A DNA stretch of 64,000 nt from Hydrogenovibrio kuenenii DSM 12350 (lineage in GTDB: Bacteria; Pseudomonadota; Gammaproteobacteria; Thiomicrospirales; Thiomicrospiraceae), in the NCBI RefSeq assembly GCF_000526715.1, contig NZ_JAGP01000001.1:1302001-1366000 (forward strand), written 5' to 3'. The notes below the pieces were generated by a model, which saw nothing but the letters and a program-made list of their open reading frames with translations, did no database searches and was not told the origin of the DNA. Every line of letters starts with the position of its first letter. Positions within the stretch are counted from its first letter, which is position 1. Of the stretch, positions 43,497 to 46,891 are shown in pieces. The position numbers were made by a program, and so were the translations under genes.

Positions 43497-44843
43497 ATGC
43501 CTCAAACAACCGATAAGCTGCAAATTACGGAACAGCTGCTACAAGCCGTAAATGATGATAACGGTGATTACGCACAACAAATACTGACCACTCTTGTTCC
43601 TGAAGAAATTGCGGAAATACTTGAAGCAACGCCACCCAAGCAGCGTTATCCACTCTGGGTACATCTAACATCAGAGGTTCAAGGGGAAGTCATTGGTCAC
43701 ACCAATGAAGAAGTCCGAGCCAGCCTACTACAACAACTTGATAACCAAGAAATAGTTGACCTTACTGAAGAGCTGGAAACGGATGACATCACAGATATTG
43801 TCCAGTCCCTTCCTGAAGAAGATAAACAGCATGTTCTAGACAACTTATCGGATGACGAGAGAACGGCAGTAGAAACCGCATTAAGTTACCCTGAAAATAC
43901 TGCTGGGGGCTTAATGAGTACGGATATTATCACCGTACGTTCTGATGTAACTCTTGAAGTTGTTTTACGTTTACTAAGAAAAATTGGCTCTATACCTAAG
44001 GCCACCTTAGACTTAATCGTAAGAGATAGAGAAGGTTTATACGAAGGTGTTCTTAGCATTAATGATCTCATCACACATGATGAAGACACCTTAGTTAGCG
44101 AACTCATTCTGAAAAAAGATGCCATAAAAGCAACCATTTCGGACAAGGATGTAGCGCATTATTTTGAAAAAAATGACATTATTTCTGCTGCTGTAATCGA
44201 TGAAAACAATCTAATCCTCGGTCGTATTACAATCGATGACGTGGTCGATATTATCCGTGAAGAAGCTGAACATGCTCAAATGGCAAGCGCAGGTTTAACG
44301 GAAGATGAAGATTTATTCTCCCCTCCTATGCGCTCAGCGAAAAGGCGTTCTTTCTGGTTGGGTATTAACTTATTAACCGCCCTATTTGCTTCAGCAGTTA
44401 TTGGCATATTTGAAGCGACTATCCAACAAATAGTTGCCCTTGCGATTTTAATGCCTATTGTCGCTAGCATGGGTGGTATTGCAGGTACGCAAACGGCAAC
44501 TATTGTTATTCGTGCTTTAGCAACAGGAAAGCTTGGCTCGAAAAACAGTCGTGCTTTGATAATCAAAGAAAGCTTGGTTGGAATGTTAAATGGATTGATA
44601 TGGTCTGTCTTGACAGGAATAACGGCTGCTGTGTGGTTTCACCAAATGTCGCTCGGCATGATATTCGGTGCAGCCATGCTACTAAATCTTATTGCTGCAG
44701 CGGTAGCTGGCGCTTTAATACCATTATTGCTGAATAAAATGAAAATTGATCCCGCCTTAGCATCTGGACTTATGCTAACAACAGTAACAGACTCTTTGGG
44801 ATTCTTTGTTTTCTTAGGATTAGCGACAGTTATTTTAGTCTAA
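43497..44843 (+). CDS. mgtE: Magnesium transporter MgtE
   Basis: 448 aa. The MgtE N domain (residues 20-130), two CBS domains (about 140-260), and a C-terminal domain of five helices with the family's SMGGIAGTQTATIVIRALAT and AMLLNLIAAAVAGALIPLLL. Mg2+ uptake gated by the cytoplasmic domains. Confidence 0.95.
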   Translation: MPQTTDKLQITEQLLQAVNDDNGDYAQQILTTLVPEEIAEILEATPPKQRYPLWVHLTSEVQGEVIGHTNEEVRASLLQQLDNQEIVDLTEELETDDITDIVQSLPEEDKQHVLDNLSDDERTAVETALSYPENTAGGLMSTDIITVRSDVTLEVVLRLLRKIGSIPKATLDLIVRDREGLYEGVLSINDLITHDEDTLVSELILKKDAIKATISDKDVAHYFEKNDIISAAVIDENNLILGRITIDDVVDIIREEAEHAQMASAGLTEDEDLFSPPMRSAKRRSFWLGINLLTALFASAVIGIFEATIQQIVALAILMPIVASMGGIAGTQTATIVIRALATGKLGSKNSRALIIKESLVGMLNGLIWSVLTGITAAVWFHQMSLGMIFGAAMLLNLIAAAVAGALIPLLLNKMKIDPALASGLMLTTVTDSLGFFVFLGLATVILV

Positions 44844-44893
44844 AAGACAACATAACAACCGAAGTGAGTCATTCACAAAATGCTTCAATAAAA

Positions 44894-45043
44894 TCAAAAC
44901 ATTCTAGCAAAGACATCTTCACTATAAGCGTAGGCCGTTGCTGCAGTTAGAAAAAGCGTAACCGCTAACCACTTAATCACTCTTGGTGATTTTTTGTTTT
45001 CCCGAAAAATATCTGATTTGCGTTTAACCAGTTTGATTGCCAT
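44894..45043 (-). CDS. 49-aa membrane protein behind a c-di-GMP riboswitch
   Basis: The ORF reads MAIKLVKRKSDIFRENKKSP then RVIKWLAVTLFLTAATAYAY and SEDVFARMF. Residues 22-40 form one membrane helix after a basic cytoplasmic part. AAGGA lies about 9 nt upstream of ATG 45043. It was recognised by reading the minus strand downstream of the riboswitch at 45138-45206. No family recognised. A one-helix protein under c-di-GMP control may regulate a surface or motility complex, which is inference. Confidence 0.65.
   Translation of the reverse strand: MAIKLVKRKSDIFRENKKSPRVIKWLAVTLFLTAATAYAYSEDVFARMF
44974..45000 (+). terminator. Possible mgtE terminator, antisense inside the 49-aa ORF
   Basis: AATCAC / GTGATT hairpin with a 5-nt loop followed by six T and a second T-run on the plus strand, 130 bp past mgtE. 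Confidence 0.5.
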
Positions 45044-45044
45044 C

Positions 45045-45098
45045 CTACAAATCCTTTTTAAATACAGCAACAAGGTCTAAATAAGGAAACCAAATCAC
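45045..45098 (-). CDS. Possible 17-aa upstream ORF
   Basis: GTG 45098 follows GGGAGGG with 7-nt spacing and encodes (M)IWFPYLDLVAVFKKDL. It stops at TAG one base before the ATG of the 49-aa ORF. The spacing suggests translational coupling, but a 17-codon ORF can occur by chance. Confidence 0.35.
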   Translation of the reverse strand: MIWFPYLDLVAVFKKDL

Positions 45099-45137
45099 GA
45101 CATAACCCTCCCACAATTTGAAAGATTATTACTTTGA

Positions 45138-45206
45138 CCGCAACCCGGCTATCTCCAAAAGACCCGTGGCTTTCCGTCCTTACTTCACAGTAAGTTTGGC
45201 TAAAAC
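45138..45206 (-). promoter_or_regulatory. Cyclic di-GMP-I (GEMM-I) riboswitch
   Basis: Read on the minus strand: GCCAAAC, then CTTACT-GTGA-AGTAAG (a stem with a GNRA tetraloop), then GGACGGAAAGCCACGGGTCT and GATAGCCGGGTTGCGG. The order and spacing of AAAC, tetraloop hairpin, GACGnAAAGCC and the receptor-side AGCCGGGTTGC are those of the GEMM-I aptamer. One base (GACGG for GACGC) departs from consensus. It lies about 95 nt upstream of the 49-aa ORF. No expression-platform terminator is obvious, so control may be translational. Confidence 0.8.
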
Positions 45207-45316
45207 ATCATTGACTTTATAATGTCATTGTGTATTTATGGCACATTTTTTTTATAAATGCAATAGAAATCATTAACTTAATGTATTTTTTTTATTTTCA
45301 GGTTTTACAAGTCGGG

Positions 45317-46891
45317 TTAATGTTCACGAGTCGCAACGAACTGTAAATTAGGCCATCTCTCTTCAATCAAATTTAAGTTAACCCGTGTCGGAGCGATATA
45401 AACCAGCTGATCAGCTGCATCGTAAGCAACATTATCTTTAACTTTCGCAAGGAATTTCTCAATTTCGGCTTTATCGCCAATGACCCAACGTGCCGTGTTT
45501 ACATTCACCGCTTCAAATAAACAGGTAACGTTATATTCGTCCTTTAAACGTTGAGCAACCACTTCAAACTGAAGCACACCAACAGCCCCCAAAATCAGGT
45601 CATTGTTTGCTATTGGTCTGAATAGTTGCGTCGCACCTTCTTCAGAAAGTTGCGTTAAGCCTTTTTGCAAAGCTTTCATTTTCATTGGATCTTTTAATTG
45701 TGCACGACGGAAAAGTTCAGGTGCAAAATTTGGAATACCAGTAAACTTCAAATCTTCACCTTGAGTAAAGGTATCTCCAATCTTGATTGTGCCATGGTTA
45801 TGCAAACCGATTATGTCGCCAGGGTAAGCCTCTTCCGCATGTTCACGCTTATTCGCTAGAAAGGTAATGGCTTTAGAAATCTTTACATCCTTACCAATAC
45901 GAACATGTTTTAACTTCATGCCCGCTTCGTATTTTCCCGATACAATACGCATAAACGCCACACGATCACGATGTTGTGGATCCATATTTGCCTGGATTTT
46001 AAACACAAATCCAGTTAACTTATCTTCATCAGACTTAACTGTTCGGGTTTCAGTTTCACGACCTTTTGGCGACGGTGCATACTTAGCAAAACCATCCAGT
46101 AGCTCCTGTAAGCCAAAGTTATTTACAGCAGAACCAAAAAATACGGGCGTAAGCTTACCTTGCAAGAAATCTTCAAGATCAAACTCATGACTTGCGCCGC
46201 GAACCAGCTCAATTTCTTCGCGCAACTCTTCTGCCATACCGCCTATTTTTTCATCCAAGGCAGGGTTATTGATACCTTCAATCAACTCACCAGCAGAAGC
46301 ATTTAAACCATCTGCAGATTCAAACAAACGCACCGTATCGTTATAAAGGTGGTAAATCCCTTTAAAACGCTTACCCATACCAATCGGCCATGTCATTGGC
46401 GCACAGTTAATTTTTAACACATCTTCAACTTCATCCAGCAAATCGATGGGATCCTTCCCTTCTCGGTCAAGCTTGTTGATAAATGTCAAAATAGGCGTAT
46501 CACGCAGACGACAGACTTCCATCAATTTAATGGTTCTATCCTCAACCCCTTTTGCGACGTCAATAACCATCAATGCTGAATCTACTGCGGTTAGGGTACG
46601 ATAAGTATCTTCTGAGAAGTCTTCGTGCCCAGGAGTATCCAACAAGTTCATCATCACATCTTTGTAAGGAAACTGCATCACAGACGAAGCAACAGAAATA
46701 CCTCTTTCCTGCTCCATTTTCATCCAATCCGACGTCGCACCGCGATCGGTCTTTCGGCTTTTAACCGCTCCAGCCATCTGAATGGCACCACCGTAAAGCA
46801 ACAGCTTTTCGGTTACCGTGGTTTTACCCGCATCCGGGTGGGAAATAATGGCGAATGTTCGTCTTTTATTTGTTTCTAGCTGCAATGACAT
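45317..46891 (-). CDS. prfC: Peptide chain release factor 3
   Basis: 524 aa. The GTPase motifs are [32 protein letters not shown] and NKLDREG, with the RF3-specific C-terminal domain. It recycles RF1/RF2. Single gene, 57 bp from the inverted repeat pair that ends the sec operon. Confidence 0.97.

Follow-up and report, generated by a model that had tools for sequence, protein, structure and literature searches.

Riboswitches of the GEMM class take their name from the genes for environment, membranes and motility with which they are associated (PMC9262584). For two of them, Cd1 of C. difficile and pilM of G. metallireducens, Landgraf et al. report that ligand binding is lost when the cytosine pairing with the ligand becomes sequestered (PMC9262584). 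Our literature search, with most subscription journals outside its coverage, retrieved no paper on a c-di-GMP riboswitch in Hydrogenovibrio or Thiomicrospira, and a search combining c-di-GMP riboswitches with small proteins or ORFs returned no title or abstract opening that describes such a case.

AcrZ, MgtS and CydX exemplify the membrane micropeptides of bacteria, which have about 50 residues or fewer, possess one helix and may regulate a larger partner. The locus described here lies in the window, by which we mean the whole 64 kb stretch of DNA analysed, and joins the two themes. We consider it probable that it constitutes a one-gene riboswitch unit, in which a c-di-GMP-I aptamer with an anti-aptamer switch governs a membrane micropeptide of 49 amino acids (Table 1).

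Table 1. Positions of the features discussed, in the window or in the named comparison locus.
Feature	Sequence	Coordinates	Strand	Basis or remark
49-codon ORF MAIKLVKRKSDIFRENKKSPRVIKWLAVTLFLTAATAYAYSEDVFARMF; basic N-terminus, one predicted membrane helix	Window	44894..45043	-	Conservation, dN/dS, hydropathy, AlphaFold model
17-codon GTG ORF, GGGAGGG in front; ends just before the ATG of the 49-codon ORF	Window	45045-45098	-	ORF reading
AAGGA, likely Shine-Dalgarno of the 49-codon ORF	Window	45052..45056	-	AAAAAGGA conserved in the type A leaders G000, G001 and G010
Anti-aptamer strand (GUGAUUUGGUUU...AGACCU), predicted to pair with aptamer GGGUCU and AGCCGGGUUGC	Window	45073..45098	-	Ligand-free fold
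c-di-GMP-I (GEMM-I) aptamer	Window	45136..45210	-	RF01051 match, full model
Possible promoter TTGCAT, 17 nt, CATAAA (weak)	Window	45235..45263	-	By eye; conserved in the three type A leaders
GGDEF-EAL gene convergent to prfC in G007	L080	1-1260	+	Occupies the place of the small gene and mgtE
Aptamer and element region	L042	8611-8845	-	
Aptamer and element region	L043	3277-3512	+	
Aptamer and element region	L044	7126-7480	+	
Aptamer and element region	L045	7797-8156	+	
Aptamer and element region	L046	7994-8350	+	
Aptamer and element region	L047	9035-9428	+	
Aptamer and element region	L048	8560-8907	+	

The aptamer and its predicted switch

The aptamer scores 58.5 bits (cut-off 35; E 7.1e-9) with family RF01051 (c-di-GMP-I), the match covering the full length of the model (positions 1–87 of 87), and this is the single match in the 64 kb window among all Rfam families at gathering thresholds. 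On a 451-base stretch, RF03167 (c-di-GMP-I-GGC) wins the clan by E-value; because its score does not reach that family's own cut-off of 59, we assign the aptamer to RF01051. The preliminary description had proposed a GEMM-I-type aptamer on the minus strand, and the covariance-model search bears it out: the match lies well over the cut-off, and all motifs quoted there (GUGA-capped P2, GACGGAAAGCC and AGCCGGGTTGC) are present. Its coordinates were off by no more than a few bases, the aptamer match reaching 45210 instead of 45206. Of the 18 consensus pairs placed from the RF01051 alignment, the window, G001, G010 and G008 each have all in standard form, and G002 and G009 each have 17.

By alignment position, G 45200, A 45177 and C 45140 presumably correspond to the Vc2 ligand contacts G20, A47 and C92, the correspondence being read from the RF01051 alignment. 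Since a G stands at the G20-equivalent position, c-di-GMP would be the expected ligand of the aptamer. The G20A change has been connected with cGAMP binding (PMC6274999) and c-AMP-GMP variants with a change at a ligand-contact position (PMC9481103). In Cd1, mutation of G11, which matches Vc2 G20, had no large effect (PMC9262584), a result counting against a strict role for that G.

Leaders with the aptamer before the small gene fall into type A (the window's own genome G000, with G001 and G010) and type B (G002, G008 and G009). In type A, the ligand-free minimum-energy fold is predicted to dismantle the aptamer: the P3 strand GGGUCU pairs with AGACC(C) or AGACCU, and AGCCGGGUUGC, which includes the ligand-pairing C, pairs with GUGAUUUGGU in the window and with GUAAUCUGGU in G001. 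This C (45140 in the window) is paired with a downstream G at probabilities of 0.99, 0.97 and 0.97 in the three leaders. Energy gaps were computed from minimum-free-energy folds with 200 block shuffles per leader. The energy of the free fold relative to the aptamer-forced fold is -8.5, -9.2 and -9.4 kcal/mol in type A, gaps reached by 5, 5 and 9 of the 200 shuffles; in type B the predicted switch signal is weak, with gaps of -3.0, -6.9 and -0.1 that 49, 18 and 152 shuffles reach, and the aptamer pairs of G008 have a mean probability of 0.92 already in the free fold. Sequence differences among the type A leaders preserve the anti-aptamer pairs as G-C, G-U or A-U; they are consistent with the fold but do not amount to proof by covariation because only one side changes, and the agreement is not independent because the three sequences are close relatives.

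No terminator-like site occurs in 44780–45400, from which we infer that control of the 49-codon ORF is most likely translational. A consensus promoter scan reported no promoter on the minus strand, its two sites lying on the plus strand; the candidate in Table 1 was noted by eye. We hypothesize that transcription of a short RNA begins in the stretch separating prfC from the aptamer, presumably at a promoter of its own, and that the aptamer folds first and persists if c-di-GMP is bound. With no ligand, the 26-nt strand at 45073–45098 would invade, taking P3 and C 45140 and destroying the binding pocket, and the RNA structure near the ATG of the 49-codon ORF would differ between the two folds.

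The direction of such a switch is poorly determined, because the accessibility of the ribosome site differs little between the two states. With the aptamer forced, access to the AUG is lower in five of the six leaders and unchanged in one, and access to the Shine-Dalgarno sequence goes down in three, slightly up in two and remains unchanged in one. The predicted cost of opening positions -16..+4 rises by 2.4, 1.2, 0.5, 1.8 and 0.1 and falls by 0.1 across the six leaders; for -20..+16 and for -16..-6 it goes up in three and down in three. From these models we weakly favour an OFF switch, in which the bound aptamer would lower AUG access and shut translation off, as slightly likelier than an ON switch. 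A lesser but real contender is that the ligand, by freeing the anti-aptamer strand, raises output or changes transcript length, through an ON switch or through Rho-dependent termination replacing control of ribosome access. It draws on the same small difference in accessibility and on the observation that closely similar GEMM aptamers serve as ON or OFF switches (PMC9262584), so that direction is unreadable from the aptamer; the reduced AUG access in five of the six leaders argues against it.

The 49-codon gene and its product

The ORF comprises 49 codons and a stop and starts 96 nt downstream of the aptamer core; this spacing had been put at about 95 nt, and the ORF and its likely Shine-Dalgarno sequence were found as previously read. 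The gene prfC lies upstream of the aptamer on the same strand and ends at 45317, and mgtE ends 50 bases beyond the ORF on the opposite strand. Because this convergent gene comes next, the ORF is the only clear same-strand target of the aptamer, in agreement with the earlier claim that a one-helix protein is the only one.

A profile search identified orthologues of the ORF in ten of the genus's 11 genomes, counting that of the window, at E <= 1.2e-20, values that are expected because the profile was built from those ten; all of them lie at one place, between prfC and convergent mgtE. The 51 other genomes of the family yielded no convincing homologue, the best match (E 0.01, in G057) being dropped since it covers 16 residues in a frame with an in-frame stop. 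The window protein as a single query matched G001 and G010 at about 1e-22, G003 at 0.02 and G006 at 0.09, and none of the remaining genomes of the genus; orthologues weakly matched or unmatched in this way were joined to the family via type B proteins. Matches to plasmids were absent in tblastn, and the nearest named relative comes from Hydrogenovibrio sp. JE_KL2 (81% over 48 residues), the one stretch confirmed among 293 retrieved by pattern. The host of the window, a sulfur oxidiser, belongs to Hydrogenovibrio or stands close to it. The eleventh genome of the genus, G007 (94% complete), has neither a small-protein match nor an RF01051 match; there, prfC is followed by a convergent GGDEF-EAL gene in place of the small gene and mgtE, and mgtE sits on another contig.

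Values of dN/dS are 0.13 (G000/G001), 0.08 (G000/G010) and 0.09 (G001/G010), three pairs not independent of one another, and 0.05 (G002/G009); synonymous change is saturated in the pairs G003/G006 and G004/G005, and G008 was left out of the comparison. Substitutions in the ORF fall mostly on third codon positions, and when these substitutions were placed at random 5000 times, amino-acid changes were as few as those observed in only 0 to 0.6% of the trials. This ORF is a gene under purifying selection, and its product, as judged by the searches above, is a new small-protein family found only in its own genus. Neither Pfam nor NCBIfam offers a convincing family match for the window protein. Among the ten orthologues the best Pfam matches are SPT_ssu-like (E 0.0022, two members) and DUF4044 (E 0.0072, one member), both taken as matches of composition, and the best NCBIfam match is MreC (E 0.12).

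The window protein has one hydrophobic stretch, at residues 22–38, with a modest hydropathy of 1.54 over 17 residues; the five orthologues measured have higher values (1.78–2.39). The AlphaFold model, built from two sequences, predicts helices at residues 2–17 and 20–48 with a mean pLDDT of 72, and the second agrees with the single membrane helix initially proposed. All ten proteins share ten residues (K4, L5, K7, R8, I12, F13, R14, K17, K18 and Y38), of which only Y38 lies outside the basic N-terminal half, and the helix region varies in sequence and keeps its hydrophobicity. In the six proteins measured, net charge is +6 to +7 before the helix and -2 to +1 after it, which by the positive-inside rule would place the N-terminus in the cytoplasm. 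The basic N-terminus is conserved more strongly than the helix, a pattern suggestive of a docking peptide that faces the cytoplasm and is held by a membrane anchor. The product may be pictured as a micropeptide that crosses the inner membrane once, with its conserved basic N-terminus ([M/I/V]KL, KR, IFR, KK) in the cytoplasm, where it would dock on a protein partner, a helix serving as anchor and a short C-terminus in the periplasm.

MgtS regulates MgtA, and the neighbouring MgtE magnesium channel could by analogy be the partner regulated by the 49-aa micropeptide, a reading that we regard as unlikely. The two genes lie tail to tail in all ten genomes bearing the ORF: eight have 4 to 84 bases between them, whereas the genes of G002 and G009 overlap by 4 bases. 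G007, which lacks the ORF, has the GGDEF-EAL gene at that place and mgtE elsewhere. However, all five ORF-less genomes searched (G007, G012, G017, G021 and G022) have an MgtE homologue of 26–70% identity, the convergent genes are not co-transcribed, and their shared position may reflect inherited synteny only.

Linkage of aptamer and gene across the genus

RF01051 matches occur in 18 of the 55 genomes searched, the window's own included, and in ten of the 11 of the genus. The aptamer stands directly upstream of the small gene in six of the ten genomes having the ORF, at core-to-ATG distances of 96, 106, 106, 93, 98 and 98 nt (G000, G001, G010, G002, G008 and G009, respectively). In the other four (type C: G003, G004, G005 and G006) no aptamer directly precedes the ORF, and the searches located a single c-di-GMP aptamer, upstream of prfC; the type B genomes have a further aptamer at that position. 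In a tree of the prfC, mgtE and lptB proteins, type A stands apart, G003/G006 fall inside type B and G004/G005 beside it; G007 was placed by prfC alone and also serves as an uncertain root, and two nodes have support values of 81 and 82. The six genomes with the direct link span this tree, which allows an ancestral link of aptamer and gene without proving it. With the origin uncounted, an ancestral link requires two losses and separate gains about three changes; with the origin counted, the two scenarios are level.

Aptamer and ORF are conserved together in six of the ten genomes, and the joint conservation named beforehand as a check is borne out in these six; the other four keep the ORF with no aptamer directly before it. 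Considered as a whole, the preliminary description was right on the sequence and, as far as testable, on its interpretation; neither the covariance-model search nor the comparison with relatives refuted it. The four orthologous genes that manage without an aptamer could mean that the aptamer of the window is degenerate and the gene constitutively expressed. This seems improbable in view of the full-length match of 58.5 bits, the 17 or 18 standard pairs of 18 in six leaders and the retention of the aptamer in genomes across the tree, and a functional riboswitch remains our preferred reading.

Seven genomes of the genus possess a c-di-GMP-I-GGC aptamer (RF03167) upstream of prfC, followed by a conserved, apparently non-coding element; these seven aptamers also pass RF01051, and RF03167 wins the clan. 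The element, of 70–74 nt (TTCAGAGTGCAAC...CCACAC), lies approximately 90–250 nt after the aptamer, and its pattern is restricted, among the order's 62 genomes, to the seven that have the c-di-GMP-I-GGC aptamer before prfC. Nested stems are predicted in the six elements folded and seem, by eye, to change compensatorily; a possible UCAGA/UCUGA pseudoknot (unscored) and a hairpin with a T-run before prfC were likewise noted by eye. Several ORFs of 20–103 codons overlap the element stretch, none of them common to all seven by eye, and Rfam gave no family for the element at cut-off in the seven regions or with lax filters in two. The element could be a c-di-GMP-gated small RNA.

At the 5′ side of the prfC-upstream aptamer, ORF reading places a kinase/response-regulator pair in five of the seven regions. 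Five regions (L044, L045, L046, L047 and L048) also have cobalamin riboswitches (RF00174, 88.6–102.4 bits) approximately 4–6 kb upstream of prfC. In L047 and L048 (G004 and G005) the junction GAC of the prfC-upstream aptamer reads GGC, which presumably puts a G at the position of Vc2 A47 and may alter ligand preference. Tandem c-di-GMP-I aptamers, about 180 nt start to start, precede short ORFs in L004/L026 (G008) and L012/L022 (G025).

That the window aptamer serves something other than the 49-codon gene, either the 17-codon GTG ORF with its well-spaced GGGAGGG or a small-RNA function of its own, after the manner of the same-clan aptamer that precedes an apparently non-coding element in seven genomes, is the least credible of the readings considered: the GTG reads GTA with an internal stop in frame in G001 and G010, so that this ORF is not conserved there and was rejected as a target, and the 49-codon ORF is conserved with no terminator-like site ahead of it.

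The c-di-GMP network and comparison with known systems

The genome containing the window (2.45 Mb) has a large c-di-GMP network, with 45 GGDEF family matches, all over the cut-off. One RF01051 match was found in it, 150 of 221 first-look candidates having been scored. A search of the genome for c-di-GMP-II riboswitches gave no match; there was none in 14 control genomes either, hence this negative is weak. We speculate, tentatively, that the prfC–mgtE region of Hydrogenovibrio is a hub of c-di-GMP output through RNA, combining the riboswitch-controlled, genus-specific micropeptide with, in seven genomes, a riboswitch-gated small RNA; the micropeptide would then be the only RNA-sensed output found for the 45 GGDEF domains of the window's genome. 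The locus names one concrete, testable candidate for a direct c-di-GMP target in the genus. A genus-restricted micropeptide under purifying selection and with its own riboswitch offers a good entry to small-protein biology: the riboswitch hints at when the protein is made, and the basic cytoplasmic motif may serve as bait for its partner.

Like AcrZ, MgtS and CydX, the 49-aa protein falls within about 50 residues, has one predicted helix and possibly regulates a larger partner. Unlike them, it is confined to one genus, has no convincing Pfam or NCBIfam match and stands under a riboswitch. With the Cd1 and pilM switches the window leader shares, by prediction, a competition between the aptamer and a strand further downstream, in which the latter captures the ligand-pairing C; Cd1 and pilM use antiterminator/terminator folds (PMC9262584), whereas the leader described here has no terminator-like site. 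RF03167 belongs to the same clan and the window aptamer scores 55.6 bits against it, under the cut-off of 59; the seven matches above that cut-off in the genus lie upstream of prfC and not directly before the small gene. With the RF01051 class the window aptamer shares a score over the cut-off, standard pairs and the G, A and C at the presumed ligand-contact positions, but its single downstream gene encodes a 49-aa protein of no known family. The aptamer is a typical c-di-GMP-I riboswitch with an unusual, genus-restricted small-protein target.
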